Below, piece after piece: positions 19,800-37,171 of a DNA stretch of 64,000 nucleotides. Position numbers and translations under genes: made by a program. The notes below the pieces were generated by a model that was not told where the DNA came from, ran no database searches, and saw nothing but the letters and a program-made list of their open reading frames with translations. The stretch is taken from assembly GCA_947853665.1 (NCBI GenBank), contig CANTXF010000053.1, forward strand, positions 1 through 64,000. The letters run 5' to 3'. This DNA comes from an uncultured Deferribacterales bacterium. Lineage in GTDB: Bacteria > Chrysiogenota > Deferribacteres > Deferribacterales > Mucispirillaceae. The first letter of the stretch is position 1. Each line of letters starts with the position of its first letter.

Positions 19800-21350
19800 T
19801 CAAGCGTCCAGCAGGCTTTTCAGCCTGTTTCTGTCCACCTTTCCGTTTGAGTTAACGGGAAAATCGTCCGTAATTATAAAATCATCCGGCACCATGTATG
19901 GCGGCAGAAGGTTTTTGAGACGCTCTTTAACTTCCCCGGCAGACAAGCTCTCCTTAGCCAGAACGAAGGCCGTCATGCCGCTGTAATTTACCGCCCCTAC
20001 GGGAACGGGTATGACGACGGCGTCCAGACACCCGTCTATACGGGATATGGCGTTCTCCACCTCGTAAAGCTCCACCCTGTATCCCCTTATCTGGGCCTGA
20101 GAGTCGTTCCTGCCCAGAAAAACGATACCGTCGTCCGTCATTTTGCATAAATCGCCGGTCATATAATAGGTTTTGCAGCCTTTTTTTACGAATTTTCCGG
20201 CGGTTTGCTCCGGGTCGTTCAGATATCCCCCGGCAAGCTGCCTTCCGGAAAGGGCAAGCTCCCCCACGCTTCCGTCGGGAACCGGACGGCCAGCCTCATC
20301 TACGATAACGGCTTCCATTCCGACGTTGGGAGCGCCTATGGGCACGGAACCGCAGTAATCGGCCTTTTCTGTCGCTTCACGGCCGAATTCAAAATATGTG
20401 CAGGCTATGGTGGCTTCCGTCGGGCCGTATATGTTCTCTATTTTAGCTCCGGGCGCCGCCAGAGAGAAAAGCCTGGCGTCATCGAAAGGGAGCGCCTCCC
20501 CGCAGAAAGCGGCGTATTCGAGCGAAGGCATGGCTCCGCTTTTAAGAACGCGCATTTTTCTCATCATGGTAAGCACGGACGGCACAAGCAGCGCATGATT
20601 TATGCCGTGCCTGTTTATAAAAGAAACGGGGTTTATCCTGTCCGCCCTGTCGGGCACATAAAGGCAGCCGCCTTTTAAAAAGCTCAGAAAAACCGAATGG
20701 GCCGACAAATCGAAGGTAAGGTCGTTCATCTGTATCAGCCTGCCGTTTTCATCGGCCCGGTTCCTTTCGCAGAAAGCGGATATATAGCCTGAAAGATTAT
20801 CCCGGCTTATGCGTATGCCCTTGGGCTTTCCTGTGCTGCCGGAAGTAAAGAGAAGATATACGCTGTCCTCTCCCCGGTCCGGGGGAAGTCCGCACCGGCA
20901 AGAATCTGCTCCCGCCCCGTGGAAGCGCCGGCCCGGATAATCGGCGGCAAGCCTTTTGCAGCAAGAAGGGGGAACGATAATTTCATATCCGTCCGATCCG
21001 GCAAAAATATTTTCCCAGCCGGTAAAATCGTCCGGGTCAGCTATTATAAACCTGGCTCCGGAAGCTTTTATGACGCTCATATTCCTTTCCGTTGGGAAAT
21101 TTTCGTTAAGTGGAACGTAATATCCCCCGGCCAGCACGGTTCCGCATAAAGCCGCGTATGTAAAGAAGCTGCCTTTTCCTGCGATTACCGCCGGCTCGTC
21201 CCCCTTCAGCCCCAGCGAAAGCAGGCGGCGGGCCACGCCTTCAGACAGGGCGGCAAGCTCGCCGTAAGTATGGAACCTTCCTCCGGTAAAAAGGGCGTTC
21301 CGACCGCTATGATCCTTGAACGATGAAAGAAGATCACTACTTAGCGACAC
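19800..21350 (-). CDS. AMP-forming adenylation enzyme (amino-acid or acyl activating)
   Basis: 516 aa with the canonical adenylation motifs: LLFTSGSTGKPKGI (P-loop A3), YGPTEATIACTYF (A5), YMTGDLC (A7) and NSNGKVDRNRL (A10, catalytic Lys). The DltA/NRPS-like layout suggests activation of an amino acid or small hydroxy acid to AMP and transfer to the carrier protein encoded downstream. Its start overlaps the end of the acyltransferase-peptidase gene by 14 nt, so both are co-expressed in the glycan-modification operon. Substrate cannot be read by eye. Confidence 0.85.
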   Translation of the reverse strand: MSLSSDLLSSFKDHSGRNALFTGGRFHTYGELAALSEGVARRLLSLGLKGDEPAVIAGKGSFFTYAALCGTVLAGGYYVPLNENFPTERNMSVIKASGARFIIADPDDFTGWENIFAGSDGYEIIVPPSCCKRLAADYPGRRFHGAGADSCRCGLPPDRGEDSVYLLFTSGSTGKPKGIRISRDNLSGYISAFCERNRADENGRLIQMNDLTFDLSAHSVFLSFLKGGCLYVPDRADRINPVSFINRHGINHALLVPSVLTMMRKMRVLKSGAMPSLEYAAFCGEALPFDDARLFSLAAPGAKIENIYGPTEATIACTYFEFGREATEKADYCGSVPIGAPNVGMEAVIVDEAGRPVPDGSVGELALSGRQLAGGYLNDPEQTAGKFVKKGCKTYYMTGDLCKMTDDGIVFLGRNDSQAQIRGYRVELYEVENAISRIDGCLDAVVIPVPVGAVNYSGMTAFVLAKESLSAGEVKERLKNLLPPYMVPDDFIITDDFPVNSNGKVDRNRLKSLLDA

Positions 21351-23433
21351 GGCCGGCCTCCTCGATAAGCCCCCTGTTTTTAAGCTCTTTTGCTACGGAA
21401 TAAATTTCCGGAAAATCCCTGCCCAGGATTTCCGCTATATCGAGAAGGGAGCTTTTCCCGTCCAGATAGGCTATAACGTCCGTAAGGCCGCGGGTGCAGT
21501 CCGCGCTGCCCCGCATGCTTACGGTAGGATAAAGCCCGTATTTGCCCAGACAAGGTTCCCCTACGGTTTTCATGCGGTATTTTCCGTCGTTTTCCAGAAT
21601 GTCTATACATTTTGCAACGAACCGTATACCCCCCCCCAATCCTTTTTTCGATATAAAATTCAAATCGTCGCGCGACGTGTGGTATTCCTTAAAAACGCCG
21701 AATTTGGTTCTGCAAAGGCACACGACGGGAAGGCCCGCGCCGGGGGAGCAGAACTGGCGCTCGTCGCTGCCTCTTTCCAGAAAAGGATACTCCTTAACCG
21801 GGCCGGAAGTATGCCTTAAAACGTGCGAGGCTATCCTGTCGGAATATGTATCGTTATAGGGAGTATGCACGCAGGAGTAATCCCCGTCGTCCCCCATGCA
21901 AGAAAGGACGAACCCGGCCTTTACCCGTTTTTTAAGATTTTCCAGATTCTCTTTCATATAAATAAGGGAGCCGATGGTTTCCGGGATAAATATAAACCTG
22001 TACGTATATCTCCTCTCCGGCAGGGAATAAACGTATTTCGCCGCCTCCGTAGCAACCGCTATGCCGGAGAGGTTGTCGTTGGCCATATCCGGATGGCATA
22101 TATATGTGGATATAAGCACTTCTTCGTCCGAATATCCGTTTATTATAAGCTCGCCGTAGTTTATCACGCCGCCGGAGTTAAAATCCGAATCTATTTTGAC
22201 CCTGTACACGGCTTCCGGCGCGCGGCGAAGCTCCTCTCGCAGCCGGTGAGGTATGCAGAACCCCCAGCGCCTTTTATAATAGGACGTAACGTAAGGCGTC
22301 GCATCCGGGTCGTTTTCAAGGGAATATAAATGGCCGTCCAGCTCGGCAAAGGACATCCGCCTGTCCACAGGCTCCGAATATCCTGCGACATGAAGCGCCC
22401 TGTCCTTAAAATCCGCTATCCTGACGCCATTTTCATTTTCTATATAGGCTTCCCTTATATTCCATTCGGGCGGTACGTTCCAGTCGAAAACGACTCCCCC
22501 GTCCCTGCCGCAGGGGTACTCCATAACGCGAAGCTCTCCCAGGTGGTATTTCTTAATATAGGCTAGGGTCTTCCTGACGCCCTCGCCGGAAATACTGCGG
22601 TTTACGGAAAAAAGAGCGGAGCATATTCCATAGGCCTCTTCTTCCGGAGCGGCTTTTTTATCGTGCTGGCCCCGGTACTGCACCTGCATGGCCGCGTTGT
22701 TTTCAAGAATATCGCGCCGTATTATTTCATAACTATCGAATATATCTATATAAGCTATCGTCGAATCGTTTATTTTTTCTTCCCGGGCGGCGCCTTTTTT
22801 TAAAAATTCCTCGTACAAAGCTCCGGCGTCCCCGCCTACTTCAAGCTCCAGCTTTCTGACGTTCATCATATACCTGCGCTTTTCCCGGGCTCCGTTTTCG
22901 TCTATATAAACGGATTCAAAATATTTGTTATACCTGTAAGGAACGCCCAGGCATTGCTCTACGTGGTGGCAGAAGGTATAATGATTGTTGAAATGAACGT
23001 CTATTACGATATTTTTGGCGCGCTTTTGATAAAGATAATCGAAAACCGTGCCGGGGCCGAAAGAGGAGCGCGTATCTATCCCGTAAAGATACTCCGCGTC
23101 CTTTCCCCAGACGGCGAAAGAATATATGGGATGGCGGGTCCTTATAAAATCCGGCCTTTTTAACGCCGCGTTTCCGAGAAAGCCGGTTTTGCCTCTCGTT
23201 TTTCCGTAGTCGAAAACGCCGCCCCGGCAGAAATCCCAGTTATACACGGGCAGAAGCAGCGTCCCTCCGCCAAGCCTGTTTATAAGAGAATCAAGAAATA
23301 CGTCCGCATCGAAAGTTTCGCCGTCCTCCATAGCGGAATAAGCCATACGGGAAATATCGGAGGAAAGCAGAACGGTATCGTCCGGCAAAATGTCCAGCAT
23401 ACCGGGTATGCCGGCGTAAGAAACGCGGCTCAT
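21337..23433 (-). CDS. AAC(3)-like acyltransferase fused to a DUF4910/M28-like peptidase
   Basis: 698 aa. Residues about 5-260 match the AAC(3) antibiotic N-acetyltransferase family (DTVLLSSDI, LGGGTLLLPVYNWDFC, RTRHPIYSFAVWG, DVHFNNHYTFCHHVE), members of which transfer acyl groups to sugar amines. Residues about 265-640 are a DUF4910-type metallopeptidase (YICHPDMANDNLSG near 445, IFIPETIGS, EYHTSRDD), and the last 60 residues look like a winged helix. Sits between the adenylation and SDR genes; probably adds an activated acyl group to a glycan amine. A run of nine G (21629-21637 on the + strand as C9), encoding LGGG near residue 600, makes the reading frame prone to slippage. Confidence 0.8.
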   Translation of the reverse strand: MSRVSYAGIPGMLDILPDDTVLLSSDISRMAYSAMEDGETFDADVFLDSLINRLGGGTLLLPVYNWDFCRGGVFDYGKTRGKTGFLGNAALKRPDFIRTRHPIYSFAVWGKDAEYLYGIDTRSSFGPGTVFDYLYQKRAKNIVIDVHFNNHYTFCHHVEQCLGVPYRYNKYFESVYIDENGAREKRRYMMNVRKLELEVGGDAGALYEEFLKKGAAREEKINDSTIAYIDIFDSYEIIRRDILENNAAMQVQYRGQHDKKAAPEEEAYGICSALFSVNRSISGEGVRKTLAYIKKYHLGELRVMEYPCGRDGGVVFDWNVPPEWNIREAYIENENGVRIADFKDRALHVAGYSEPVDRRMSFAELDGHLYSLENDPDATPYVTSYYKRRWGFCIPHRLREELRRAPEAVYRVKIDSDFNSGGVINYGELIINGYSDEEVLISTYICHPDMANDNLSGIAVATEAAKYVYSLPERRYTYRFIFIPETIGSLIYMKENLENLKKRVKAGFVLSCMGDDGDYSCVHTPYNDTYSDRIASHVLRHTSGPVKEYPFLERGSDERQFCSPGAGLPVVCLCRTKFGVFKEYHTSRDDLNFISKKGLGGGIRFVAKCIDILENDGKYRMKTVGEPCLGKYGLYPTVSMRGSADCTRGLTDVIAYLDGKSSLLDIAEILGRDFPEIYSVAKELKNRGLIEEAGRVAK
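21629..21637 (-). repeat. G9 homopolymer tract in the acyltransferase-peptidase gene
   Basis: Nine G on the coding strand (TTG GGG GGG GGT), in frame in this sequence. Slippage by one would truncate the peptidase domain. Confidence 0.9.
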
Positions 23434-23436
23434 AAT

Positions 23437-24192
23437 TTATATCATCCCTCCGTTTATTTCAAAAACGGCTCCGGTAATCTTATCCGCCTGCTCAGAAAGC
23501 AGATAGATAATCATATCGGCTATTTCCCTTTTTTCTATAATGCCAAGGGGCTGTACCGACCGCATATCTTCCGCCCTGCCGGTAAGCGTAAGATAGCTTT
23601 CCGCCATATCCGTGTCCGCCATGGCGCTTCTTATAAGATTCACACGCACGGAGCTTTTCAGAGCTTCCTTCGCCAGTATCTTCACGCAGCCCTCCAGGGC
23701 CGCCTTGGAGGAAGCGTAAGCGAGCCTTCCGTTTTCCGGGTGGGTAACGGAAACGGACGACACCGAAACGATACTCCCCCCCCCGGGTTTTGCCTGTTTC
23801 AGATAAAGCCTGGACATTTCCACAAAAGAGAAGAAATTAACGGCGAAGGTCTCCGTCATCACATTTACGGAGGTCTGCCGGACCGGGCGCAGCGGAGCCT
23901 GCCCCGCGCAGTATATAAGGCCGTCGGGAACCCCGCGGTCTTTAACTATATTGCGGAAAAGCTCGGATACGTTTTCCGGGCGGCTTAAATCGCAGGGGTA
24001 AACTCCGCACAGAGCGCAGGAGCCTGAAGCCCCGTATATGGCGCAAATATCTTTCCTGGCTTTCTCCAGCGCTTCCCCGCAGGAAGCCATAAGTATCGTG
24101 CCCGCGCCGCGCTCCGCCAGGCGTTTGGCCGTCTCAAGGCCTATGCCCCGGCTTCCGCCGGTGATTATATAGCTTTTATCCTTAAACATCAT
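23437..24192 (-). CDS. SDR-family ketoreductase (FabG-like)
   Basis: About 251 aa. TGGSRGIG (NADPH site, residues 12-19), the catalytic Ser region SVSSVSV, and YASSK (Tyr/Lys) are all present; the ending ITGAVFEINGGM is typical of 3-oxoacyl-ACP reductases. With the KAS III and carrier protein encoded just upstream it could make a 3-hydroxyacyl-ACP such as 3-hydroxybutyryl. A G9 run (23776-23784) encodes KPGGGS before the active site, so slippage would abolish activity. Confidence 0.85.
   Translation of the reverse strand: MMFKDKSYIITGGSRGIGLETAKRLAERGAGTILMASCGEALEKARKDICAIYGASGSCALCGVYPCDLSRPENVSELFRNIVKDRGVPDGLIYCAGQAPLRPVRQTSVNVMTETFAVNFFSFVEMSRLYLKQAKPGGGSIVSVSSVSVTHPENGRLAYASSKAALEGCVKILAKEALKSSVRVNLIRSAMADTDMAESYLTLTGRAEDMRSVQPLGIIEKREIADMIIYLLSEQADKITGAVFEINGGMI
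23776..23784 (-). repeat. G9 homopolymer tract in the SDR gene
   Basis: Nine G on the coding strand (CCC GGG GGG GGG AGT), residues about 137-139, upstream of the catalytic Ser and Tyr. Confidence 0.9.
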
Positions 24193-24229: not shown

Positions 24230-24445
24230 TCAGCCCATAGCGTCCAGAACGTCCCCAACGGTGACGAATCCGGCGGCCTCCTCAAAAGTGAGCTTTCTGC
24301 CGAATTCGTCCTTAAACATGATTATCAGCGAAAGCCTCGCCATAGAATCCCACACGTCTATGTCGTCCAGCCTGGTATCGGGCGCGACGTCTCCGTTTAT
24401 GGAAAGAGCGTCCTTAAACATATCCAGTTTTTCTTCCTGCGTCAT
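24230..24445 (-). CDS. Acyl carrier protein (second)
   Basis: About 71 aa from the ATG at 24445, which overlaps the KAS III stop (ATGA); a longer start at 24478 lies inside the KAS III gene. DVWDSMARLSL holds the phosphopantetheine Ser, and the acidic helices with a VGDVLDAM end are typical. Likely partner of the KAS III and SDR encoded on either side. Confidence 0.83.
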   Translation of the reverse strand: MTQEEKLDMFKDALSINGDVAPDTRLDDIDVWDSMARLSLIIMFKDEFGRKLTFEEAAGFVTVGDVLDAMG

Positions 24446-25395
24446 AAACCTTCCCGCCATTTTATTATAGTGCCGCACCAGGCAAGCCCGACGCCGAAGC
24501 CCAGAGCGAGCACGTTCATTCCGTCTTTAAGCCTGCCTTCGTTCCTTAAAGCGTCGAGAGCAAGAGGTATGGTGGAAGCCGCCGTGTTGCCGGTTTCCTC
24601 CATATTTATAAAAAACCTGTCGCCGCCGACCTTCAGGCGCTTTTTAATATATTCCAGAATCGTTTTATTCGCCTGGTGAAGCACGATATGGTCTATATCG
24701 TCCAGAACCTTATTATTTTTAGCTAAAATTTCCTCTATCATACGGGGAACTTCGCTTATGGCGAAATAAAACACGTCCATACCCTTCATATAAAGGGAGG
24801 CCCGGCCGTCCGGACCTTCGCCGTTTTTGATTATGATATCCTCATAGCCGCTTCCGTCGGAGCCGTACAGAAATTCGCCCATGCTTTCGGCCGCGGCCCG
24901 GTCGATAAAGCAGGCGGAGGCGGCGTCCCCTATCAGGGTTTTCACGCTCCTGTCCTCGTCGGAGCAGTATTTGGAAAGCACGTCCGCCGTAACGAGAATA
25001 ACCCTTGAAGCCATGCCGGACATTATCATGCTTTTCGCGGTAAAAAGCCCGTAAGTAAAACCGGCGCAGCCCTGATTAATATCGAAAGCGCCGCACGTTT
25101 TGGGCATTCCGGCCATGGCGTGTATTCTGAAAGCGGTGGCGGGGAGCATATTATCAGGGGTTTCCGTAACGCACAGGAGAAAATCAGCCGAAGCCCCGTC
25201 AACGCCGTGCTCCATGAAGAGCTTTTCCAGAGCCTTAAAACCCAGATCGGAGGATTTTTCCTCCGGAGCGGAATAACGGCGTCTCCTTATGCCCGTCTGC
25301 TCGAAAACCCTTTCGGAATCCCAATCGGAAAACACACCGGCGAAATCCTCGTTACTCACGGCCTTATCAGGCAGATACACGGAAAATTTAAGCAT
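24442..25395 (-). CDS. Beta-ketoacyl-ACP synthase III (FabH-like)
   Basis: 317 aa with the FabH catalytic triad: Cys in FDINQGCAGFTYG, His in IVLHQANK and Asn in ETGNTAASTIPLAL. It condenses an acyl-CoA with malonyl-ACP. Lacking a local dehydratase or enoyl reductase, the cluster would stop at a 3-oxo or, with the SDR, 3-hydroxyacyl stage. Probably specialised for the glycan rather than membrane lipid synthesis. Confidence 0.87.
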   Translation of the reverse strand: MLKFSVYLPDKAVSNEDFAGVFSDWDSERVFEQTGIRRRRYSAPEEKSSDLGFKALEKLFMEHGVDGASADFLLCVTETPDNMLPATAFRIHAMAGMPKTCGAFDINQGCAGFTYGLFTAKSMIMSGMASRVILVTADVLSKYCSDEDRSVKTLIGDAASACFIDRAAAESMGEFLYGSDGSGYEDIIIKNGEGPDGRASLYMKGMDVFYFAISEVPRMIEEILAKNNKVLDDIDHIVLHQANKTILEYIKKRLKVGGDRFFINMEETGNTAASTIPLALDALRNEGRLKDGMNVLALGFGVGLAWCGTIIKWREGL

Positions 25396-25443: not shown

Positions 25444-26397
25444 TCAAACCGTTAAGAGTCCACGCTCGATATAGCTTTTAACGGCCAGATCAATAGTTTC
25501 CTTACAAGTATATTTAGGTCGATATCCAAGCAATCTTTTTGTCTTTTCTATGCTGAAAACGCCGCTTCTTGCAATGTGGTAATAGGTGTGGGCACATTCT
25601 TCCGCGCTGCCCTCATACTCGCACCATTCGTTCCAGGGCAGAAATTTAATTTTCGGCTCGTGTCCAAAATATCTGTATAAGTGCATCGCAAAGCCATACA
25701 ATGTGATATGGTCTTCCGCTTCGGCGTCAAAACTTTCGCCAAGCGCTTGATTTCTATGCGTTATCGCCTGAAAAAATACCTGCGCTACATCATAACCATG
25801 CACATGATGAAGGATCTCCTGCCCGAAATTAGGCAGGGCGATCTCCTTTCCGTCCGCAATATCCTGAAATACCCGCATGGAAGTATTACCCCAGGGATTT
25901 ATGATCGTCCACCCCGGCCCGGAAATTTGCCCCGGCATAATTACAGTCGCGGGAAACCCGTTCCTGCGATACTGTTCTTTCAGATACATTTCACTTTCAA
26001 ATTTATCTTTTCCGTAATCGTCAAGCGGCGCTTTTCCGATATCGTCGGGATCGAACGGAATACTCTCCGCCATACCGTGCGCCCAGCATGAAGAACAATA
26101 TAAATAATGCGAAAGCTCCGTATCTTTAAAAGCCCCGACTATTTTCTTCGTTTCCTCAATATTAAAATTCACAAGGTCGACAATAATATCGGGCTTCATC
26201 CCCCTGATTTTGTCTATAAATTCCGTTTCGTTATTTCTGTCCAGAAGCACCCGTTTTACCTTATGCCACGCAGGAGCGTCTTCATAAGGCCCGGACATAG
26301 TTCTCGTAATCGCAGCGGTATCGTATCCCGCATTTACAAGCATGGGAATCAAATATGTTCCGATATGTCCAGCCGCGCCGATAACGACCGCTTTCAT
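25444..26397 (-). CDS. NAD-dependent epimerase/dehydratase family protein
   Basis: 317 aa. GAAGHIGTYLIPML (residues 7-20) is the nucleotide-binding loop of extended SDRs. The later part (YCSSCWAHG, DDYGKDKFESEMYL) has the Ser and YxxxK region. Closest in feel to nucleotide-sugar or small-substrate epimerase/reductase relatives; substrate unknown. Its base composition is noticeably more AT-rich than adjacent genes, which hints at a different origin. Confidence 0.75.
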   Translation of the reverse strand: MKAVVIGAAGHIGTYLIPMLVNAGYDTAAITRTMSGPYEDAPAWHKVKRVLLDRNNETEFIDKIRGMKPDIIVDLVNFNIEETKKIVGAFKDTELSHYLYCSSCWAHGMAESIPFDPDDIGKAPLDDYGKDKFESEMYLKEQYRRNGFPATVIMPGQISGPGWTIINPWGNTSMRVFQDIADGKEIALPNFGQEILHHVHGYDVAQVFFQAITHRNQALGESFDAEAEDHITLYGFAMHLYRYFGHEPKIKFLPWNEWCEYEGSAEECAHTYYHIARSGVFSIEKTKRLLGYRPKYTCKETIDLAVKSYIERGLLTV

Positions 26398-26433: not shown

Positions 26434-27180
26434 TTAAAGGCTTATTTTATATTTTTCGGTAAATTTGCCGTAAAGGGCGCTTAATGCTTCGGAGAAAGCG
26501 CCCTTATCTATAAGGGAGCCGCTCAGATATTCCTTTTCCCACCTTTTCCAGAATTCGGGGCCTTTAAGGGAGGCAAGGGAGCTTCCGGATTTAAGGTTTT
26601 GAGTATAATTATCGTGCAGCAAAGCCGCCGCCATAAGATGAAAAAGCACGTAAGGCTCCCTAAGCAGAGCCGCGCCGCCGCCTCCTTCCCGCCACAGGGC
26701 TTTGTATTTATCCTTCATGGATTTTACGAAGCACGGAGTCTCGAACCCGGCGAATTCCGCCGTAACGTCGTAGACGGAAATATATTTGACGTCCGTAAGC
26801 TCCCCGTCCATATCGAAAACCGGCAGGAAAGGATACAGCTTGCAGAAAAGCGAGCGGGAAAAGTCCCTGTTGCAGCCGGAATCGTCGGCGCAGTGCCTGT
26901 AATAAACCCTGACAGGCGGTTTGTCAGCGCCGAAGCGGGCCTCCATCGAATAAGGCGCCGCGTCGGCAACCTTGCCGTAAGCCTTCAGATACGCGTATTC
27001 TTTGGGCAGATAAAAAAGCGTGCCGCCTTTAGGTATTATTCTGAAAGGCATTTCCGGCGTGTCCCACCGGCAGCAGAAGCTGGCGCATTTTTTGTAGCAG
27101 CCCGGCTCCTCTATAAACTCCGACCGGCTCACCTTATCCCAGTAAATGATCTCGCTTTCAGTCAGACCGATATTTTCCAT
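26434..27180 (-). CDS. Cysteine-cluster protein (YkgJ-like, hypothetical)
   Basis: About 248 aa from the ATG at 27180 (MENIGLTES); an upstream start at 27216 is less likely. Cysteines are spaced CYKKCASFCCRW (about residues 27-38), then CADDSGCNRDFSRSLFCKLYPF (about 104-125), a metal-binding pattern like that of YkgJ-type or glycan-associated cysteine-cluster proteins. I cannot name a function. First gene (upstream end) of the minus-strand glycan operon ending at 19298. Confidence 0.65.
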   Translation of the reverse strand: MENIGLTESEIIYWDKVSRSEFIEEPGCYKKCASFCCRWDTPEMPFRIIPKGGTLFYLPKEYAYLKAYGKVADAAPYSMEARFGADKPPVRVYYRHCADDSGCNRDFSRSLFCKLYPFLPVFDMDGELTDVKYISVYDVTAEFAGFETPCFVKSMKDKYKALWREGGGGAALLREPYVLFHLMAAALLHDNYTQNLKSGSSLASLKGPEFWKRWEKEYLSGSLIDKGAFSEALSALYGKFTEKYKISL

Positions 27181-27344
27181 GAAAACAACGCTATATAAAA
27201 ACCGAAAAAATATCAAGAAATTAATATAATAGTTTTATAAAACCCAAAATATATTTTATTGAAACTTAAACGGCCTGCTTTTATTTTTTGCGCCTCCCGT
27301 TTTGGTGGATTGAAAACGAGCGGGTATAGATAAGCCCGCTCCCG

Positions 27345-27566
27345 TTTTTAATGCTGATGCCGGCTGCGGCAAAAGCATTTTTAAAATATGGCTCCGTGCC
27401 GCCATACATAAAGAATCTTTCCCTGCGCGGCAAGTCAAACTCAAGGCGGCAAAGCCCCCTTTCAGACTGCGACTTGCCGAACGCTCCGGGCAATATTCTT
27501 TATTGCCGGACACAAGTCGCCTTATTATAAAAATGCTTTCTCCGCTTTAGCCGATGCGGACGTTTC
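27345..27566 (-). repeat. Left arm of a 220-bp inverted repeat
   Basis: Reverse complement closely matches 31675-31900 (about 8 differences in the 150 bp compared by eye). Contains an ORF of about 60 codons (GLCRLEFDLPRRERFFMYGG, then EPYFKNAFAAAGI) preserved in both arms. Confidence 0.85.
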
Positions 27567-27579
27567 TAATCCGAGCTTG

Positions 27580-27722
27580 CTCTAAAGCGAGGCGCGACAG
27601 ATCATGCGCCTCCCGCTTTGGTGGACAGAAAACATTTGCCTAATTAATGCAAATGTTTCTGTTCCGAGCTTGCTCTAAAGCGAGCGGGGACAGATAAGCC
27701 CGCTCCCGCTTTTGCTGGACAA
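27580..27722 (-). repeat. Element A, composite intergenic copy
   Basis: Contains cctcccgctttggtggacag, an inner hairpin AAACATTTGC...GCAAATGTTT and gagcttgctctaaagcgagc. Reverse orientation relative to the prophage copies. Confidence 0.75.
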
Positions 27723-27780
27723 CTTTAAAGAAATAAATAATAATTTCCTCCGCCTTTATATTTTATACACGGTGAAATAT

Positions 27781-29007
27781 ATGCCATACTGGGCTGTTGT
27801 TTCTATTTTCGCGCTTATTTATCTTTTTATATCCGTTCAGCGGTTCCCTTTCATAAAAATAGACCGTCCGGCGGGAGTGTTCACAGGCGTAACTCTCCTT
27901 GTGCTCTCGAAGGTAATAACCCTGGAAGAAGGCTACGGCTTTATAGACTGGGACGTGATAACCTTCCTTTTAGGCATGATGATAATGATATCCTATCTTC
28001 AGGCTTCGGGTTTTTTCGGCGCTGCCGCCTCTTTCGTAGTAAGGGCCTGCCGTGGGCCTAAAAGCCTGCTGGCCGGGGTGATATTTTCCTCCGCGCTTCT
28101 TTCGGCCCTGTTCGTAAACGACACCGTGTGCCTGCTGATGACGCCTATCGTTGCGGCGGCTGCGGCGGCCGTTAAAATAAACCCTATTCCGTACCTTGCG
28201 GCGCTTGCCCTTTCCTCCAATATAGGAAGCGCCCTTACCGTTACCGGCAACCCCCAGAACATGTATATAGGCATAAGGACGGGCATAGGCTTTCTGCAAT
28301 TTGCTGGAATAACTGCCGTTCCCGTGCTGTTTTCACTGGCGGCGGTTTACGCCGTGCTGCGGGCGGTTTACCGCAAAGAAACGGCCGCCCCCTTTAAAGC
28401 CCCGGCGGAGCTTGCCGGACAGGCGCCGGTAGATCTGCCCCTTGCGGTAAAGAGCCTGGCGGCCCTTTTGCTGACCCTTGTACTTTTCATAAGCGGAGCG
28501 GGCTATCCCTTCGCCGCTCTTGCAGGAGCCACGGTCATAATCATTACGGCAAGAATAAAACCGGCCCTGGCCTTCAAAAGGGTGGACTGGCCAATACTGC
28601 TTTTTTTCGCCGGGCTGTTCGTCGTAATGGGGGCGTTTGAAAAAACAGGCTGTATGGCGGGCCTGATAAGCTCCGCGGCGGGGCTGACGGAAGAAGGCGG
28701 GCTTTATTCGCTGGGTCTCTTTTCCGCAGTGACGGCTTTAATATCCAACGCCGTAAGCAACGTTCCAGCCGTCATACTGATGATGCCCGCGGCAGAAGGC
28801 TCCGATAAAAGCGCCGCCCTTCTGGCCCTTATATCCACTTTCGCCGGAAACCTTACCCTTGTAGGCTCCGTGGCAAACCTTATCGTGGCGGAGAGGGCGG
28901 AGGCCTCCGGAGTATCTTTTTCTTTTGCGGAGCATCTGAAAGCGGGCGTGCCAGTAACGCTTATCTCCTGCGCTGCCGCGGTCTTATGGATATTCCTTTT
29001 ATTGTAG
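27781..29007 (+). CDS. ArsB/NhaD/SLC13-type anion transporter
   Basis: About 408 aa from ATG 27781; the 23 extra residues from 27712 are repeat-derived and rejected. Around ten hydrophobic segments, with the paired hairpin signatures ALSSNIGSALTVTGNPQN and ISNAVSNVPAVIL of the ion transporter superfamily (ArsB, CitM, SLC13). Cytoplasmic-membrane exporter or importer of an anion; substrate not readable. It lies within the inverted-repeat-bounded segment and is unrelated to the flanking glycan genes. Confidence 0.78.
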   Translation: MPYWAVVSIFALIYLFISVQRFPFIKIDRPAGVFTGVTLLVLSKVITLEEGYGFIDWDVITFLLGMMIMISYLQASGFFGAAASFVVRACRGPKSLLAGVIFSSALLSALFVNDTVCLLMTPIVAAAAAAVKINPIPYLAALALSSNIGSALTVTGNPQNMYIGIRTGIGFLQFAGITAVPVLFSLAAVYAVLRAVYRKETAAPFKAPAELAGQAPVDLPLAVKSLAALLLTLVLFISGAGYPFAALAGATVIIITARIKPALAFKRVDWPILLFFAGLFVVMGAFEKTGCMAGLISSAAGLTEEGGLYSLGLFSAVTALISNAVSNVPAVILMMPAAEGSDKSAALLALISTFAGNLTLVGSVANLIVAERAEASGVSFSFAEHLKAGVPVTLISCAAAVLWIFLLL

Positions 29008-29627: not shown

Positions 29628-29641
29628 GGCTCCCGGTTTTA
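29615..29641 (+). terminator. Rho-independent terminator after the 29097 gene
   Basis: GGGAGC (29615-29620) with GCTCCC (29629-29634), followed by ggtttt. The stop codon lies in the loop. Confidence 0.6.
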
Positions 29642-31543
29642 CTGACGCCCCTTTCTTTCCTCCAGCTCTTTTTTAAAGCCTTCAAGCAGCTCTATGGAAG
29701 TTTTGAATTCGTCCACTATCTTATCTATAAGCAGCGCCATAACGGAGTAAAACTCCTTATATTTTTCCGTAAGCATTACGTTCAGCTCAAGAGACGGCGG
29801 GTTTGAAAACCTGTACGCGTTCAGGTCCATAGCGGATTTTATATAGAAGGACTGAACGTAGTGCATAAGTATAAGATAAAAATCGGGAGAGGCGAAAACG
29901 CCGCTTACGGCCGATATTTTATCCATTACGGCGTCAAGCTCGTCCGCTTTGGCGCCTTCCGGCTTACCGCCCGTTTCTTCCATTATTTTATCGAATTCGA
30001 GACAGTGCTCCACGCCCTCGCGCAGCCTGGAAGCCATATCCGTGCAGAACTCAAGGGCGTGGTACAGCTTTTTAAGCACCGTGTTTACCTGAGTGCGTTT
30101 AATTTTTTCCGTAGGATATTTAAGGTTTTTCCTTATGGTTTCAAGAACGTTTATATCTTTAGAAACGTATTTTTCTATGGCCTCGGCAAAGGTCATAAGC
30201 TCCGTGCCGTGGATTTTCGCTCCGCCCTCCGTGGCATTTATTACCCTGCCGGTATGGGTCGCCATATCCCTTTCGTAGTGCTTTAAGAAGCCGTACCAGA
30301 CGGGGGTGGTTTTTACCGTCGGAGCGTAGTTGCCTTCCACGGTAACCGCCCTGGCCGCATTGTTCGTTTCAAAATCCTCCCCGTAGTGGAAGCCGTCGGC
30401 ATGGGATTTATCGTCTTGCCCAAAAGCAAGATCCTGCCCTATTATTATTATCGGGTCGCAGCCTAAAAATTCCAGCAGCTTAAAGGCCATATTGGCGGAG
30501 GAAGGCCCTATTTCCAGTATGCCCTTAGGAATGTCCAGCCATTTGAAGGTGGCGAAGTTTCTGTATATTATTATTTTTTCACCGGGGAAGTTGGCGTATG
30601 TCTCCGGCACCACCACAGGGCAGGCCGCAAGGTAGGAGTCCTTTACGTCCTCCGGCGTAAGCCCCTCGAAAAGTCGGGACGTGGATATTACCCGCTCAAG
30701 GGAGGTTACCATGTGGGCGGGCTTCAGACCGTGCTTTTTAAGAACTTTTACGGAGCCGTCCACCGCCACTATAACGGCTTTGTTATATATGCCTTCGAGA
30801 AGCTTCACATTTTTATTAAGGGAGGGGCCTGTGGCCACGACCACGCCCGGCTTGCCCTTAAACGCGCCTTCAAGCTCCTTTACTCCGGGATAGTCTATTA
30901 TGGTGGAGATGTTGCGCAGAGTGTACTTTATGCCCAGAAGGGAGTCGTAAGGGTCGTTGCCGTAGAGGGACAGGACTCCCCCTATCGCCTCCTTAACGGT
31001 TCTTATGGCCCCGATATAATAGTCCTTATCGGCGGCTATGGCGGCGAAGTTTTCTATAAAATTGACGGATTTGAGAAAAGCCAGATTAAAATTTTTATTA
31101 AAATAATCGAAGGTTTCCGGGTAAAGCAGATTCGGAGCCTTACCTCCCGCTATAAAGAAATACGGGTTTGAAAAAAGCTCTTTAAGGTTCACATGGGACA
31201 TTACCGTTTTTAAAAGCTCCGCGTCCTTCTCGAAAACCAGCACGGACGCGTTTTTAAACCTGGAAAAATACTCCATTGCGTGATACCCGGCCCCGAAGCC
31301 CAGCATTACGGCCACGTTTGGCAGAAGTATTTTTTTGGTGTTAAGCTCCGTTCTAACGGCTATGAGCGGGTCTATGCCGTTATAGTAATTTCTGTTGAAT
31401 TTAAGGTCTATCAGAGCCGGAAGGCCGTCCTTCCTCTGGGAGGGAACGAGCTTGTATCTGCCCGTAACGGGGGCGTTCTCCACGAGGGCGGCAAGCTGAG
31501 GGTTTTTCTTGGCCAGAGCGGCAAGGTTCTGTTTAAACGGCAT
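29639..31543 (-). CDS. maf: Motility-associated (Maf) glycosyltransferase, DUF115
   Basis: 634 aa. The central segment GVVATGPSLNKNVKLL, then VIVAVDGSVKVLKKHGLKPAHMVTSLE, is the DUF115/MptE-like core; PSSANMAFKLLEFLG and IIIGQDLAFGQDDKSHADG are further family marks. Maf proteins transfer nonulosonic acids such as pseudaminic acid to flagellin Ser/Thr residues. The pseudaminic-acid genes next to it on the same strand support this role. Confidence 0.85.
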   Translation of the reverse strand: MPFKQNLAALAKKNPQLAALVENAPVTGRYKLVPSQRKDGLPALIDLKFNRNYYNGIDPLIAVRTELNTKKILLPNVAVMLGFGAGYHAMEYFSRFKNASVLVFEKDAELLKTVMSHVNLKELFSNPYFFIAGGKAPNLLYPETFDYFNKNFNLAFLKSVNFIENFAAIAADKDYYIGAIRTVKEAIGGVLSLYGNDPYDSLLGIKYTLRNISTIIDYPGVKELEGAFKGKPGVVVATGPSLNKNVKLLEGIYNKAVIVAVDGSVKVLKKHGLKPAHMVTSLERVISTSRLFEGLTPEDVKDSYLAACPVVVPETYANFPGEKIIIYRNFATFKWLDIPKGILEIGPSSANMAFKLLEFLGCDPIIIIGQDLAFGQDDKSHADGFHYGEDFETNNAARAVTVEGNYAPTVKTTPVWYGFLKHYERDMATHTGRVINATEGGAKIHGTELMTFAEAIEKYVSKDINVLETIRKNLKYPTEKIKRTQVNTVLKKLYHALEFCTDMASRLREGVEHCLEFDKIMEETGGKPEGAKADELDAVMDKISAVSGVFASPDFYLILMHYVQSFYIKSAMDLNAYRFSNPPSLELNVMLTEKYKEFYSVMALLIDKIVDEFKTSIELLEGFKKELEERKGRQ

Positions 31544-31674
31544 AATATATCGTCCTTATTCCTTTATCGGCGGCTGCTAAGCGGGCAGCCGTCCTTTTAT
31601 TATATTACTGCAAATTTGCCTGAACTTCAAAGCGGGGCGCGCAATACTGGTCGCGCGTCGCCTTCTGTCCGCCA

Positions 31675-31900
31675 ACGTCCGCATAGGCTAAGACGGCAAA
31701 AGCGTTTTTATAATAAGGCGACTTGTGCCCGGCAATAAAGAATATTGCCCGAAGCGTTCGGCAAGTCGCTGTCTGAAAGGGGGCTTTGCCGCCTTGAGTT
31801 CGACTTGCCGCGCAGGGAAAGATTCTTTATGTATGACGGCACGGAGCCATATTTTAAAAATGCTTTCGCCGCAGCCGGCATTAACATTAAAAGCGGGACG
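31675..31900 (+). repeat. Right arm of the 220-bp inverted repeat
   Basis: Matches the reverse complement of 27345-27566. Carries the same ORF from TTG 31745 (EAFGKSLSERGLCRLEF...). The two arms face each other around a 4.1-kb segment with the transporter, the helical protein and maf. Confidence 0.85.
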
Positions 31901-32084: not shown

Positions 32085-33140
32085 TCAACCGTCCTCGAAC
32101 ATATCCCGGCTCACCGGCTCGCCTCTTGAAATATCTCTGGCGGCTTTCCTGCCCACAACGCTTTCAAGGTATCTGGGGTGCATACCGCCGGACGGCCGTA
32201 TGGAGCGGATATCAGTATATTCTATTATCTTGCCCTTTTCAATATCCGATACGGCGTAAAGGGAGCGGGAAAACGCCCTGCCTCTCCGGGAAGCCGGCGT
32301 AAGCTCGTAGCGGACGGAGCCTAAAGCGGCTTCCGCCGTGCGCACCGCCTTTACCATGGCGGAAAAATCCTCCGGCGAGGCGGAAAAGGACGCGTCCGGG
32401 GAGTTTATGCTTTTATCAAGTATAAAATGCTTCTCTATTACGGAGGCCCCCAGCACGGCGGCGGCCACGGCCACGGCGTTATCTGTGGTGTGGTCGGAAA
32501 GCCCGGCGGAGACCCCGAACCTTTTAGCCATATCCGGTATGGTGCGCAGGTTGGCCTCCTCCGCGGGAGCGGGGTAGGAGCTGGTGCATTTAAGAAGCAC
32601 TATATCGCAGCATCCGGCTTCACGGCAGGCGGCCACGGCTTCTTCTATATCGGCCTTTTCCGCCACGCCCGTGGATATGAGCACGGGCTTTCCCTTAGAA
32701 GCGGCGTATTTTATAAGCGGAATGTCCGTTATCTCGAAAGAAGCTATCTTGTAGGCTGGCACGTTCATTTTTTCCAGAAAATCCACGGCCGTTTTATCGA
32801 AAGGGGAGGAGAAAAGAACAAGCCCCATTTTACCGGCGGCCTCTTTAAGAACGGGCTGCCACTCCCAGGGAGTATAGGCGGAAGAGTAAAGGTCGTAATA
32901 AGTTTTTCCGTCCCAGATGGAGCCGCCGGATATAGTAAATTCCGGGCGGGAGCATTTTATGGTGAGAGTGTCCGCCGTATAGGTCTGGAGCTTTACCGCG
33001 TCCGCCCCGGCGTTTTTGGCCGCTTCCATGGTTTTCAGAGCGGTCTCAAGGCTTCCTCCGTGGTTGGCGGAAAGCTCGGCTATAATAAAAGCCCTGCCCT
33101 CGTCCAGAGCAAAGCCGCCGATATTTATATTTTTTTTCAT
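32085..33140 (-). CDS. pseI: Pseudaminic acid synthase
   Basis: 351 aa. IIAELSANHGGSLETAL, DAVKLQTYTADT, LFSSPFDKTAVDFL and GLSDHTTD are NeuB-family motifs; the C-terminal SAF domain (residues about 285-345) is present. It condenses a 2,4-diacetamido-altrose type sugar with phosphoenolpyruvate to give pseudaminic acid. PseI rather than NeuB is chosen because PseB and PseC are in the same operon. Last gene of that operon. Confidence 0.87.
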   Translation of the reverse strand: MKKNINIGGFALDEGRAFIIAELSANHGGSLETALKTMEAAKNAGADAVKLQTYTADTLTIKCSRPEFTISGGSIWDGKTYYDLYSSAYTPWEWQPVLKEAAGKMGLVLFSSPFDKTAVDFLEKMNVPAYKIASFEITDIPLIKYAASKGKPVLISTGVAEKADIEEAVAACREAGCCDIVLLKCTSSYPAPAEEANLRTIPDMAKRFGVSAGLSDHTTDNAVAVAAAVLGASVIEKHFILDKSINSPDASFSASPEDFSAMVKAVRTAEAALGSVRYELTPASRRGRAFSRSLYAVSDIEKGKIIEYTDIRSIRPSGGMHPRYLESVVGRKAARDISRGEPVSRDMFEDG

Positions 33141-33146
33141 ACGTCC

Positions 33147-33671
33147 TCATCCTGCGGCGTTTAGCGGAAGCTCCCAGCAGAGCACGGTTACGGTTTCCCC
33201 GTCCCGCGTGAAGAACCGCCTTTTTTCCGCGTTCTCTTTATATCCCGCCCGTTCGATGGATCTTACGGAAGGAACGTTGAAAGAAAAAACCTCCGTCCTC
33301 AGAAGCTTCCACTTACCCCCCCCCACTGCGTAAGCGGCTTTTTCCGCAAGTTTAAGGAGCAGGGCGCCAACGCCTTTTTCGTTTTTTCTATTCCCCGCTT
33401 TATAGTAGCCCACATCCGCCGAAACTCCGTCGATACCCGTAAAGCTGATAACCCCCACGGGCCGCCCGTCCGGGCCGGACACGAGAAAATAGGCTCTGTC
33501 CTTCCTTTGGACGAGGCTTTTCACATAAGAGAAATGACTTTCCCTGTCTATCTCCCCGCAGGAGAAGGAATTGCGCCTTACTTCGGGAGCGTTGCGCCAG
33601 GAAAGCACGGCGGAAAGCTCGCCCTCGCAGCAGTCCGTAAAATTTTTCAGCAGAAATCCGTCTATCGTCAC
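33147..33671 (-). CDS. pseH: PseH-like GNAT N-acetyltransferase
   Basis: 174 aa GNAT fold: WRNAPEVRRNSFS near residue 25, and the acetyl-CoA loop region NRKNEKGVGALLLKLAE. PseH acetylates the C4 amine made by PseC using acetyl-CoA. Start overlaps the formyltransferase gene by 4 nt. A G9 tract (33316-33324) encodes AVGGGKW near residue 117, so the enzyme may switch on and off. Confidence 0.82.
   Translation of the reverse strand: MTIDGFLLKNFTDCCEGELSAVLSWRNAPEVRRNSFSCGEIDRESHFSYVKSLVQRKDRAYFLVSGPDGRPVGVISFTGIDGVSADVGYYKAGNRKNEKGVGALLLKLAEKAAYAVGGGKWKLLRTEVFSFNVPSVRSIERAGYKENAEKRRFFTRDGETVTVLCWELPLNAAG
33316..33324 (-). repeat. G9 homopolymer tract in pseH
   Basis: Nine G on the coding strand (GTG GGG GGG GGT). 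In frame here; a one-base slip truncates PseH at about two thirds. Confidence 0.9.
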
Positions 33672-34228
33672 AGGGCTTTTCCCGCAAGGTTTTCCACAGG
33701 AGTGTCGTAACCCAGACCGGAAAAAAGCCGCAGATATTTATCCTTGTCCTTCAATTTGTGCATTGAACCCTTTTCCCTTTGCGGTTTCCCCTCCAAAGAG
33801 CCTGAAAGCAGCGCCCCGGCGTTGTCGCAAAAAAGGGCGGTTATTTCTTCAATGAGCTTATCATAGCTGGTTTTAAGGGTCTCCCTTTCTCCGAAAACGA
33901 CTTCTTTCTGAATAAGGATCTCCCCGCCGTCCAGCTCCTCCGATACCCGGTGTATGGTAACGCCCTTTCTGGTGTTCTCCAGAAAGCTCCATAAGTTGGG
34001 GTCGGCGCCCTTATTCCACGGCAGAAAGGATATGTGCAGGTTTATTATTCTGCGGCCGTATTTCTCTATAATATCTGCCGGTATTATGTGCCTGTACCCG
34101 AAACTTATTATAAAATCCGCCCCGGAGCAGTCCGTTATCCTGTCCTCCGTTACGGAGCAAACGTGGCCGTCTTTTTCAAGGCGGCTTTCCAGCAGGCGGG
34201 CCTTATTTCCCAAAAGAAGTATATTCAC
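33668..34228 (-). CDS. Formyltransferase-family protein in the pseudaminic-acid operon
   Basis: 186 aa. IINLHISFLPWNKGADPNLW and VTIHRVSEELDGGEIL are the His and Asp blocks of folate-dependent formyltransferases. In sugar operons such enzymes N-formylate amino sugars. It occupies the place where PseG (the UDP-hydrolase) is often coded, and no PseG is visible in the window. Overlaps both neighbours by 4 nt, so it is made with the rest. The substrate is probably a 4-amino sugar or the final nonulosonate. Confidence 0.75.
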   Translation of the reverse strand: MNILLLGNKARLLESRLEKDGHVCSVTEDRITDCSGADFIISFGYRHIIPADIIEKYGRRIINLHISFLPWNKGADPNLWSFLENTRKGVTIHRVSEELDGGEILIQKEVVFGERETLKTSYDKLIEEITALFCDNAGALLSGSLEGKPQREKGSMHKLKDKDKYLRLFSGLGYDTPVENLAGKAL

Positions 34229-35031
34229 CGTTGTTTTCCGTTTTTTATGAGCTTTTCCGCGCGAAACATATTATGCAGTTTCAGCAGGCTGGCGGCTTCC
34301 TTCAGCTCCTCCTTTTCGTCCGTAAAGGCGTTCTTCTGATAAACGCCGTCGTTTATACGGGCAAGCCAGGGCCTTTCCCTGTAAAGGGCCGCAAGCTCCC
34401 GCCAGGAAAACCCGTCGGGCAGCAGATCGAATACGGCAAGAAGCGCCGTATAGTCCTCGTAAGTATCAAGAGTGACCCTTATTCCGGCAGACGGCTCGGA
34501 GGTAATATAATCGGCTTTTCTGTACCCGGCCGAGCGCCTTATATGCAGCGTGACGTGCTCCCTTATTTCGATGCGTTTTTCTTCCCTGTCGCTTCTGAAA
34601 AGGGCTTCGGCGGTAAAGGCCTCGGCGTCAGTCCCGTGGGGGAAGGTCCTTTTCTCCACGTTCGACGCGTAGTCGGAGCGGCTTTTTTCCAAGAGGGCGA
34701 TAACGCCGGATATTATTTCCGGGTCGGAGCAGGGGCAGTCGGACGTTATCCTCACCGCCGCGTCCAGACCGTATTGCCTGACGGCTCCGGCGTAGCGGGA
34801 AAGCACGTCGTCGAGGCTTCCCCTGTAAACGGCGGCTCCGTATTTCTCCGCCTCCCTTACAGTTTCGTCGTCCTCTTTCTCCGTGCTTGTGGCCACTATC
34901 ACAAGGGGCAGAGCTTTTTTACAGCGCTCTATCACGTTTCCCAGCACGGACCTTGTCCCCAGAGGCAGCATGATCTTTCCCGGCAGCCTGGAGGAAGAAA
35001 TGCGGGCCTGTATTATTATACCCGTATTCAT
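34225..35031 (-). CDS. SpsF-like nucleotidyltransferase (PseF role)
   Basis: 268 aa. The N-terminal IIIQARISSSRLPGKIM is the SpsF signature, related to CMP-KDO and CMP-sialate synthetases; ITSDCPCSDPEII is the acidic metal site. Probably activates the nonulosonic acid to a CMP form, replacing a standard NeuA-type PseF. The C-terminal 35 residues are a helical extension. Overlaps pseC and the formyltransferase gene by 4 nt each. Confidence 0.75.
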   Translation of the reverse strand: MNTGIIIQARISSSRLPGKIMLPLGTRSVLGNVIERCKKALPLVIVATSTEKEDDETVREAEKYGAAVYRGSLDDVLSRYAGAVRQYGLDAAVRITSDCPCSDPEIISGVIALLEKSRSDYASNVEKRTFPHGTDAEAFTAEALFRSDREEKRIEIREHVTLHIRRSAGYRKADYITSEPSAGIRVTLDTYEDYTALLAVFDLLPDGFSWRELAALYRERPWLARINDGVYQKNAFTDEKEELKEAASLLKLHNMFRAEKLIKNGKQR

Positions 35032-36179
35032 ATAAGCGCTTCCGCCGCTTCCTTTACGGACCTTACGACGAATTCCGCGTCGCTTTCCGTCATTTTGGGA
35101 TATATGGGGATAGAAAGCTCCCGGCGGTAAAAATCGTAGGCAAGGGGAGTGTCGCCGCGGCTGTAACCCATATTCTCATAATAGGGGTGCCTGTTTACCG
35201 GCATATAATGTATCTGGCATATTACGCCGGTATCTTTTAATATCCTGTAAGCCTTGTCCCTCATTTCCCCCGTTTTGAATATAAGGGGAAAAAGATGATA
35301 AGCGTGGCGGAAGCCTTCCGGCTCCGGCTGCATGGAAAAAGCCTCCTCGCCGCGAAAGCTCTCTCTGTAAAGGGAGGCTATCTCCCTGCGCCTTTCAAGG
35401 AAATCATCCAGGCGGTCAAGCTGGGAAACACCCAGAGCGGCGCTTATTTCCGTCATTCTGTAATTGTTGCCCAGAAAGCGCATTTCATGGTAACAGGGGC
35501 TGTCGGGAACGTCGGCGAAAAAATGTCTGTCGATACCGTGGCTGCGCAGGTTTCCTGCCCGGCGGCGAAGCATAAGGCTCTCCATAGCGACGGCGCCGCC
35601 TTCCCCAGTGGTTATATGCTTTACCGGGTGGAAGCTGAAAACAGCCGCGTCCGAATATTTGCAGGAGCCTATCCTTTCGCCGTCTATGGCCGCCCCGAGA
35701 GCATGGCAGGCGTCCTCCACAACTTTAAGGCCGCGCCTGTCCGCAATGTCCCTAATCGCCTTCATATCGCAGGGAAGCCCGGCGTAATGCACGGGGACTA
35801 TTATCTTTGTTCTGGGCGTTACCGCCGCCTCTATTTTATTTACGTCCATAAGGCCCGTTTCCGGGTCTATATCCACAAACACGGGCTTTGCCCCAGTATA
35901 AAGGGCGGCGTTTGCCGTGGCGGCGAAAGTTATGGGGGTGGTTATTATCTCGTCGCCGGGTTTAAGCTCCATAAGCATATAGGCTATATGCAGGGCCGCA
36001 GTGCCGGAGGAAACGGCCGCGGCGTTTTTCGCCCCCACGGCGGCGGCAAATTTTCTCTCGAATTCGGGGACCGTCTCCCCTTGAGTCAGAAAATCGGATT
36101 TTAACACCCTGACCGCGGCCTCTATATCCGCCTCGTTTATCCACTGCTTTCCGTAGGGGATCGTCTTTTTGCCTTTCAT
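35028..36179 (-). CDS. pseC: PseC aminotransferase (UDP-4-amino-4,6-dideoxy sugar)
   Basis: 383 aa, DegT/DnrJ/EryC1 family. AAVSSGTAALHIAYML, VEDACHALGA and the PLP-Lys site FSFHPVKHITTGEGGA are present. It adds the C4 amine to the 4-keto sugar made by PseB. Length and motifs match PseC. 4-nt overlap with pseB. Confidence 0.9.
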   Translation of the reverse strand: MKGKKTIPYGKQWINEADIEAAVRVLKSDFLTQGETVPEFERKFAAAVGAKNAAAVSSGTAALHIAYMLMELKPGDEIITTPITFAATANAALYTGAKPVFVDIDPETGLMDVNKIEAAVTPRTKIIVPVHYAGLPCDMKAIRDIADRRGLKVVEDACHALGAAIDGERIGSCKYSDAAVFSFHPVKHITTGEGGAVAMESLMLRRRAGNLRSHGIDRHFFADVPDSPCYHEMRFLGNNYRMTEISAALGVSQLDRLDDFLERRREIASLYRESFRGEEAFSMQPEPEGFRHAYHLFPLIFKTGEMRDKAYRILKDTGVICQIHYMPVNRHPYYENMGYSRGDTPLAYDFYRRELSIPIYPKMTESDAEFVVRSVKEAAEALI

Positions 36180-37171
36180 TTGGTTCTCTTGATATATTCC
36201 CTTGCTTCTTCCGCCATTTTAAGCAGGTATTCCGGCGAAAGCCTGTCCGGGTTCGTATCGCTGGAATAGCAGAAGCCTTCGGACAGGGGCCTGCCTTCCT
36301 CCCCGGCGGGATCGCTCCAGGGCAGAAACTCCGGGATTATCCTGTAATGGTCGGAATATTCCAGCGTATGGCGGGCGTCGTCCGAGGGTATCATTATCTC
36401 GTGCATTTTTTCGCCGGGGCGTATGCCTACGATTTTTATCCTGCAGCCGGGGCCTATCGTCTTGGCAAAATCCCCCATAGTCATGGAAGGTATCTTAGGC
36501 ACGAATATTTCCCCGCCGCTCATTCTGTCAAAAGCCTTTATCACAAGCTCTATCGCCTGCTCTATGGTTATCCAGAACCGGGTCATATCCGGGTTTGTGA
36601 TGGTAAGCTCGCCTTTTTCCGCCTCCTCGAGAAAAAGCGGAAGAACGGAGCCGCGGCTTCCCAAAACGTTGCCGTAGCGCACCACGCAGAACCGCGTCGC
36701 CCTGCCTCCGGCGTAGGAATTGCCCGCCACGAACAGCTTATCGGAGGCCAGCTTTGTGGCCCCGTACAGGTTTATTGGGTTTGCCGCCTTATCGGTGGAA
36801 AGGGCCACGACCTTTTTCACGCCGTTATCTATGGCCGCCTCTATCACGTTCTGAGCGCCCATAATATTTGTCTTTATGGCTTCAAAAGGGTTGTATTCCG
36901 CCGCTACCACCTGCTTGGAAGCCGCGGCGTGCACCACGTAATCCACGCCGTAAAAGGCCCGCATGAGCCTGTCCCTGTCTCTTACGTCCCCGATAAACAT
37001 ACGAAGCTGCTTTATATCGGAGCAGTCTCTCGCCATCTGATATTGCTTATATTCGTCTCTGGAAAAAATGATTATTCTGGCCGGGTCGTAATTATCCGCG
37101 AGGAAGCGGACGAATTTTTTTCCGAAAGTGCCGGTGCCGCCCGTTACAAGAACGGATTTTCCGTCGAACAT
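36176..37171 (-). CDS. pseB: PseB UDP-GlcNAc 4,6-dehydratase (5-inverting)
   Basis: 331 aa. TGGTGTFGKKFV (Rossmann loop), IIFSRDEYKQYQM, VVALSTDKAANPINLYGATKLASDKLF (catalytic Asp-Lys and YxxxK) are diagnostic of PseB/FlaA1. First step of pseudaminic-acid synthesis and first gene of a tightly overlapping six-gene operon. Confidence 0.93.
   Translation of the reverse strand: MFDGKSVLVTGGTGTFGKKFVRFLADNYDPARIIIFSRDEYKQYQMARDCSDIKQLRMFIGDVRDRDRLMRAFYGVDYVVHAAASKQVVAAEYNPFEAIKTNIMGAQNVIEAAIDNGVKKVVALSTDKAANPINLYGATKLASDKLFVAGNSYAGGRATRFCVVRYGNVLGSRGSVLPLFLEEAEKGELTITNPDMTRFWITIEQAIELVIKAFDRMSGGEIFVPKIPSMTMGDFAKTIGPGCRIKIVGIRPGEKMHEIMIPSDDARHTLEYSDHYRIIPEFLPWSDPAGEEGRPLSEGFCYSSDTNPDRLSPEYLLKMAEEAREYIKRTK

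Follow-up and report, generated by a model that had tools for sequence, protein, structure and literature searches.

What does an acyltransferase of the aminoglycoside-acetylating type do when it is joined to a DUF4910 metallo-domain among genes for acyl carriage? The question is raised by a 64,000-nucleotide stretch of DNA from an uncultured Deferribacterales gut bacterium of the Mucispirillaceae (contig CANTXF010000053.1, positions 1 to 64,000; the window). A reading made from the sequence alone had described there one 698-aa protein with two domains. This is borne out: a single intact open reading frame (ORF) occupies 21337..23433 of the MINUS strand (23433→21337), with an ATG start, 698 aa and zero internal stops. 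The strand was absent from the sequence-only reading; the plus strand of 21337-23433 holds multiple stops. The fusion is a recurrent, apparently uncharacterised joining of two known families, and we give about an even chance to its being a bifunctional enzyme that exchanges an N-acyl group in two steps during flagellar pseudaminic acid (Pse) biosynthesis.

Domain structure and recurrence of the fusion

Both halves that had been named are present; a DUF2172 insert and a C-terminal HTH_47 domain had been overlooked. Every Pfam match exceeds its curated gathering cut-off (25 bits for the Antibiotic_NAT profile, PF02522, which scores 89.7), and the order DUF4910/DUF2172/HTH_47 of the CA_C2195/Cj1295 family is present with all three over their cut-offs. 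An AlphaFold model from an 89-sequence alignment, which superseded a run with 7 sequences (predicted local distance difference test, pLDDT, 50.8), is confident along the whole chain (mean pLDDT 93.7, predicted template modelling score 0.90). Foldseek matched its N-terminal part to AAC(3)-Xa, AAC-IIIb, YokD, BA2930 and FrbF (E about 1e-13 to 1e-15, template modelling (TM) score by target about 0.68-0.75), and its C-terminal part to PDB 3k9t over nearly the whole length (TM-score 0.93 by target), followed by M28 aminopeptidases.

In a set of 51 genomes of the phylum, seven hold the full-length fusion: the window's own and six others of the same family (Mucispirillum), whose proteins are 58-61% identical to the window's; elsewhere in the order DUF4910 occurs alone or next to a separate AAC gene. 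These seven collinear proteins rule out a chance or assembly join. Named genomes were scanned for patterns that lie in the AAC half, which gave 80 loci, in Mucispirillum, Lachnospiraceae, Erysipelotrichaceae, Gastranaerophilales and others, so distributed: both halves in one ORF in 32, as separate genes in 40, AAC only in 8. The fusion is thus not unique to the window. In 27 of the 40 separate-gene loci the two genes lie within 150 bp of each other, with AAC first in 21 and DUF4910 first in 6. A quick tree of DUF4910 shows 11 changes between the fused and the separate state, at least six of them forced by well-supported branches; fusion or fission therefore occurred repeatedly. As the scan selected on the AAC half, its fractions are not representative of DUF4910 at large. 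Among 250 Bacillota genomes there were five strong full-length DUF4910 matches, and only that of the seed genome lay in a frame of fusion length; the fusion is a minority form of DUF4910 in unbiased samples.

Set against the sequence-only reading's own grounds for refutation, these results count by half: the fusion is recurrent, with the halves as separate genes in many relatives, but no biochemical characterisation of the fusion or of the separate pair was found in the literature. The search there for a characterised AAC-DUF4910 fusion yielded only an unspecified 'in some cases gene fusions' (PMC4000134, supplementary tables outside the scope).

Active sites of the two halves

The N-terminal half shares with the AAC(3)/FrbF/YokD acyltransferases the fold and the His/Glu active site: His156 (82/83 sequences) and Glu159 (81/83) align with His183 and Glu186 of BA2930. 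It differs from them in its low identity (16-20% over the fold), in being joined to DUF4910 and in its donor, probably an acyl group on acyl carrier protein (ACP). It is not a resistance-enzyme equivalog, the NCBIfam model NF033082 giving 20 bits against a cut-off of 270. The genome also holds a second, unfused Antibiotic_NAT paralogue (L115:7903-8754, genome contig C44), 38-41% identical to the window's AAC half and near genes for an AMP-binding enzyme and a Fur-family regulator.

The C-terminal half keeps a metal site. By alignment, the Zn ligands His189, Asp195 and His324 of 3k9t correspond to H447, D453 and H585, all present, and H447, E485, D557, E558, H585 and D589 are invariant in 82/82 sequences. 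In contrast, the position of the M28 general-base Glu (assigned from PMC4000134) is Pro484, with Pro in 80/82. Residue 449, two after the first His ligand and at the position of the M28 catalytic Asp, is Ser in 75/82; the window protein alone among the 82 has Asp there (GAT codon), which by itself does not restore the M28 catalytic pair. The HPDMANDNLSG segment, earlier described as apparently intact, has its metal ligands but also this singular Asp. An active M28 peptidase is unsupported, and the earlier "peptidase" label is doubtful; the second option then offered, lost peptidase activity and another role, fits better. M28 aminopeptidases (BSAP, 6hc6; Aneurinibacillus AM-1 aminopeptidase, 2ek8) share with the window protein the fold and partly the metal-ligand layout; the latter differs by Pro484 and by a DUF2172 insert in place of the PA domain.

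Related systems in Clostridium and Campylobacter

The closest structure is that of CA_C2195 from Clostridium acetobutylicum (3k9t), a DUF4910-DUF2172-HTH_47 protein matching window residues 265-682 (phmmer E 4e-89) with 39% identity in the Foldseek comparison. Genes for an aminosugar N-acetyltransferase, an ACP, a NeuB-type synthase and a Maf-like protein lie near CA_C2195. CA_C2195 differs in being a separate gene without an AAC half and in having Ser191 where the window has Asp449. Das et al. reported the same two M28 catalytic losses in CA_C2195, a trimer with a single Zn, and argued that it is no peptidase and has a role in modified carbohydrate biosynthesis, possibly transacylation (PMC4000134).

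In Campylobacter jejuni, a DUF2172/M28-like protein, Cj1295, stands beside an AAC(3)-family gene, Cj1296/Cj1297, in the pseudaminic flagellin glycosylation locus (PMC3068675, PMC3025981, PMC5135748, PMC6321876); the latter is annotated as an AAC(3)-type N-acetyltransferase (PMC3025981, PMC5135748). Kinship of Cj1295 to the window protein rests on the shared DUF2172/DUF4910 family as reported in this literature. Hitchen et al. showed that Cj1295 is required for Pse5(di-O-methylglyceroyl)7Ac instead of Pse5Ac7Ac (m/z 391 vs 317) and proposed that it cleaves the C5 acetamido group of Pse; C5 acyl exchange of Pse is known only through these genetics and mass spectrometry (PMC3068675). In C. jejuni, unlike the window, the pair is split over two genes, both of which contain a phase-variable G tract; the acyl group there is di-O-methylglyceroyl, and the locus includes legionaminic genes as well.

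Proposed function and alternatives

The reading that we favour builds on the observed fusion, its recurrence, both folds, the AAC catalytic residues and the gene context, and on the published role of Cj1295 in C5 acyl replacement. The C5 nitrogen of Pse bears the acetyl of N-acetylglucosamine (GlcNAc), so C5 acyl replacement calls for deacylation. Since the window joins the protein types of Cj1295 and Cj1296/Cj1297, the simplest reading is consecutive action, the acetyl off and a carrier-borne acyl on. We infer the deacylase chemistry, the step order, the substrate, the acyl group and the task of each half as follows. The DUF4910 half has an M28-like fold of metal-dependent amidohydrolases and is taken to have lost its peptidase activity; it would strip the N-acetyl from Pse, or from a precursor linked to CMP or UDP. 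If C. jejuni is a guide, this would be the acetyl that C5 has from GlcNAc. The half with the AAC(3) fold would then re-acylate the freed amine with a different acyl from the adjacent ACP. FabH, FabG and ACP may supply a 3-hydroxyacyl group, the simplest candidate being 3-hydroxybutyryl; the adenylation enzyme may instead load an amino or hydroxy acid. The more specific claim, that one polypeptide takes an N-acyl off a nonulosonic acid and puts on another from ACP, and that DUF4910, with its degenerate aminopeptidase fold, represents a new kind of sugar N-deacylase that depends on metal, we hold tentatively, at somewhat under an even chance.

Several lines of evidence favour this reading. The 32 fused loci of 80, together with the 27 immediate neighbours (gap <150 bp, in both orders) and the repeated changes of state on the DUF4910 tree, suggest a coupled function by the Rosetta stone argument. 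The AAC catalytic residues are conserved, and the confident model shows both known folds. ACP, adenylation or FabH genes were near 27/32 fused and 29/48 other loci, and Pse genes near 23/48 of the latter. The Pse operon in the window, about 8 kb from the fusion unit on the same strand, and a flagellin gene beside the unit in Mucispirillum locus L033 support a flagellar Pse role. For the chemistry there is a precedent in the pilin sugar of Pseudomonas aeruginosa 1244, 5-N-hydroxybutyryl-7-N-formyl-Pse (PMC6222762), to be compared with the window's FabH/FabG/ACP and formyltransferase-domain genes.

Several observations weigh on the other side. Pse genes were within the fetched flank of only 3/32 fused loci. 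Many Lachnospiraceae fusions lie beside ACP, MaoC and adenylation genes with no Pse genes in reach; the substrate may therefore differ between lineages and be another sugar there. No match to TIGR03590, the PseG UDP-sugar hydrolase, was found in the window's genome (97% complete, 68 contigs). With Pro484 in place of the M28 general base, hydrolysis by DUF4910 requires another base. Cj1296/7 was out of frame in both C. jejuni flagellin variants studied (PMC3068675), so that the AAC partner may be dispensable for the C5 swap in C. jejuni, the second step perhaps falling to another acyltransferase. Finally, no measured activity was found in the literature for any AAC-DUF4910 fusion or separate pair.

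The Pro in place of the hydrolytic Glu, a C5 swap that occurred although Cj1296/7 was out of frame (PMC3068675) and the view of Das et al. (PMC4000134) would also suit an alternative in which DUF4910 is itself a transacylase. It would exchange the acetyl for an acyl carried by ACP or by a peptide, and another position of the same sugar would be acylated by the AAC half, the fusion only coupling two decorations. We consider this unlikely: halves that are fused or tightly paired more probably act one after the other on one group, and the AAC half is by its fold a dedicated acyl transferase whose catalytic residues are kept. The loss of M28 catalytic residues across the family, with the trimer and single Zn of 3k9t, may also be read as a sign that DUF4910 is non-catalytic, a binding or oligomerising scaffold (trimer, lid, HTH_47 contacts) presenting the sugar or ACP to the AAC half; the conservation of the metal-site and pocket residues in every sequence, and the individual requirement for Cj1295 in the acyl swap (PMC3068675), make this quite improbable.

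The first option of the sequence-only reading was an aminoacyl system, in which the DltA-like enzyme would load ACP, the AAC half would transfer the aminoacyl to an amino sugar and DUF4910 would trim or edit it. The adjacent adenylation enzyme does fit amino-acid adenylation (307 bits) and DltA (280 bits) models best, both under the cut-offs, and has by inspection a DltA-like FDLS / FCGE motif pattern; however, one of the M28 catalytic pair is missing, the scheme leaves FabH and FabG without a role, and the product of Cj1295 bears a hydroxy-acid group, not an amino acid (PMC3068675), so that we regard it as improbable. That the protein confers resistance to aminoglycosides and merely carries an accessory domain, as membership of the Antibiotic_NAT family might suggest, is hardly credible: this is rejected on the score with the AAC(3) equivalog, and in several phyla the pair belongs to clusters of sugar and ACP genes.

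Gene context of the fusion

The adenylation, carrier and 3-ketoacyl-ACP synthase III (KAS III) neighbours noted earlier are real, all on the minus strand, and are accompanied by a FabG-like reductase (Table 1). FabH, ACP and FabG are upstream of the fusion and the adenylation enzyme is downstream; inspection of the translations shows Cys-His-Asn in FabH, Ser-Tyr-Lys in FabG and the DSM serine in ACP, all kept. In the Pse operon, PseI was assigned by equivalog and the PseB-, PseC-, PseF- and PseH-like genes by Pfam only. The genome has one DUF4910 gene, and its flagellin genes are on three other contigs.

Table 1. Features of the fusion gene, its unit and the Pse operon in the window
Feature	Coordinates	Strand	Basis
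Fusion protein Antibiotic_NAT + DUF4910(DUF2172) + HTH_47, 698 aa	21337..23433	-	ORF, Pfam, AlphaFold
N-terminal AAC(3)-fold acyltransferase half, about residues 1-245	22699..23433	-	PF02522 89.7 bits (residues 43-238); Foldseek
AAC active site His156-x2-Glu159	22957..22968	-	Aligned with His183/Glu186 of BA2930
DUF4910 M28-like metallo-domain, residues 268-616	21586..22632	-	Pfam 291 bits; phmmer 3k9t E 4e-89; Foldseek 3k9t E 7e-51
DUF2172 insert domain nested in DUF4910, residues 323-416	22186..22467	-	Pfam 111 bits
HPDMANDN metal segment, residues 447-454, with unique Asp449	22072..22095	-	Alignment
HTH_47 circularly permuted winged helix, residues 621-691	21361..21573	-	Pfam 66 bits; PMC4000134
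Stand-alone DltA-like adenylation enzyme, predicted amino-acid activating	19800..21350	-	14-base overlap with fusion ORF end
FabG-like 3-oxoacyl reductase	23437..24192	-	Profile matches; inspection
Acyl carrier protein with DSM phosphopantetheine site	24230..24478	-	Profile matches; inspection
FabH-like KAS III	24442..25395	-	Profile matches; Cys-His-Asn by inspection
NAD-dependent epimerase-like protein; unit membership uncertain	25444..26397	-	Pfam
Cys-rich protein (KKCASFCC), no Pfam match	26434..27216	-	Homologue directly downstream of fusion in Mucispirillum loci
Maf/PseD-like motility accessory factor	29639..31543	-	Profile matches
PseI pseudaminic acid synthase	32085..33140	-	488.9 bits vs equivalog cut-off 340.25
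PseH-like GNAT N-acetyltransferase	33147..33671	-	Pfam
Short formyltransferase-domain protein, beside PseH/PseI	33668..34228	-	Pfam
PseF-like cytidylyltransferase	34225..35031	-	Pfam
PseC-like aminotransferase	35028..36179	-	Pfam
PseB-like dehydratase/epimerase	36176..37171	-	Pfam

The Cys-rich protein is conserved beside the Mucispirillum fusion (loci L032-L034 and L097), and the flagellin gene of L033 (4099-6516, 806 aa) adjoins the whole FabH-ACP-FabG-fusion-adenylation unit. In a rumen Lachnospiraceae locus (L040:11286-11711) an ACP and a MaoC-like dehydratase come after the fusion, which suggests a different acyl group there; in two other Lachnospiraceae loci (L090, L093) the formyltransferase-domain protein is joined to PseI as a single ORF. 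The plus strand carries a citrate/arsenite-type transporter (27712-29007) in the interval that separates the fusion cluster from the Maf gene; intergenic stretches that look alike flank it, near 27500-27700 and 31650-32000.

Tracts of nine G are present in the fusion (21629-21637), in FabG (23776-23784) and in the PseH-like gene (33316-33324). A change of length in the fusion or FabG tract would truncate or scramble the protein end, and the tracts recall Campylobacter phase variation, Cj1295 being phase-variable; their enrichment is weak. The three in the island give a Poisson p of about 0.011, post hoc. Phase variation was set aside: G8 runs in the window are not enriched relative to dinucleotide shuffles, about 64 G9 runs occur genome-wide, and the residues around the fusion's tract vary among Mucispirillum homologues.

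Significance

The biochemical function of DUF4910 (Cj1295, CA_C2195) has been a standing question since 2010-2014. The recurrent natural fusion points to an acyltransferase partner, and turns the hypothesis of deacylation followed by re-acylation into an assay on one protein. The acyl groups of flagellar nonulosonic acids are variable between strains, and phase-variable in Campylobacter; an enzyme that sets the acyl group is therefore of wide interest, with regard both to flagellar surface variation and to the enzymatic synthesis of Pse analogues.

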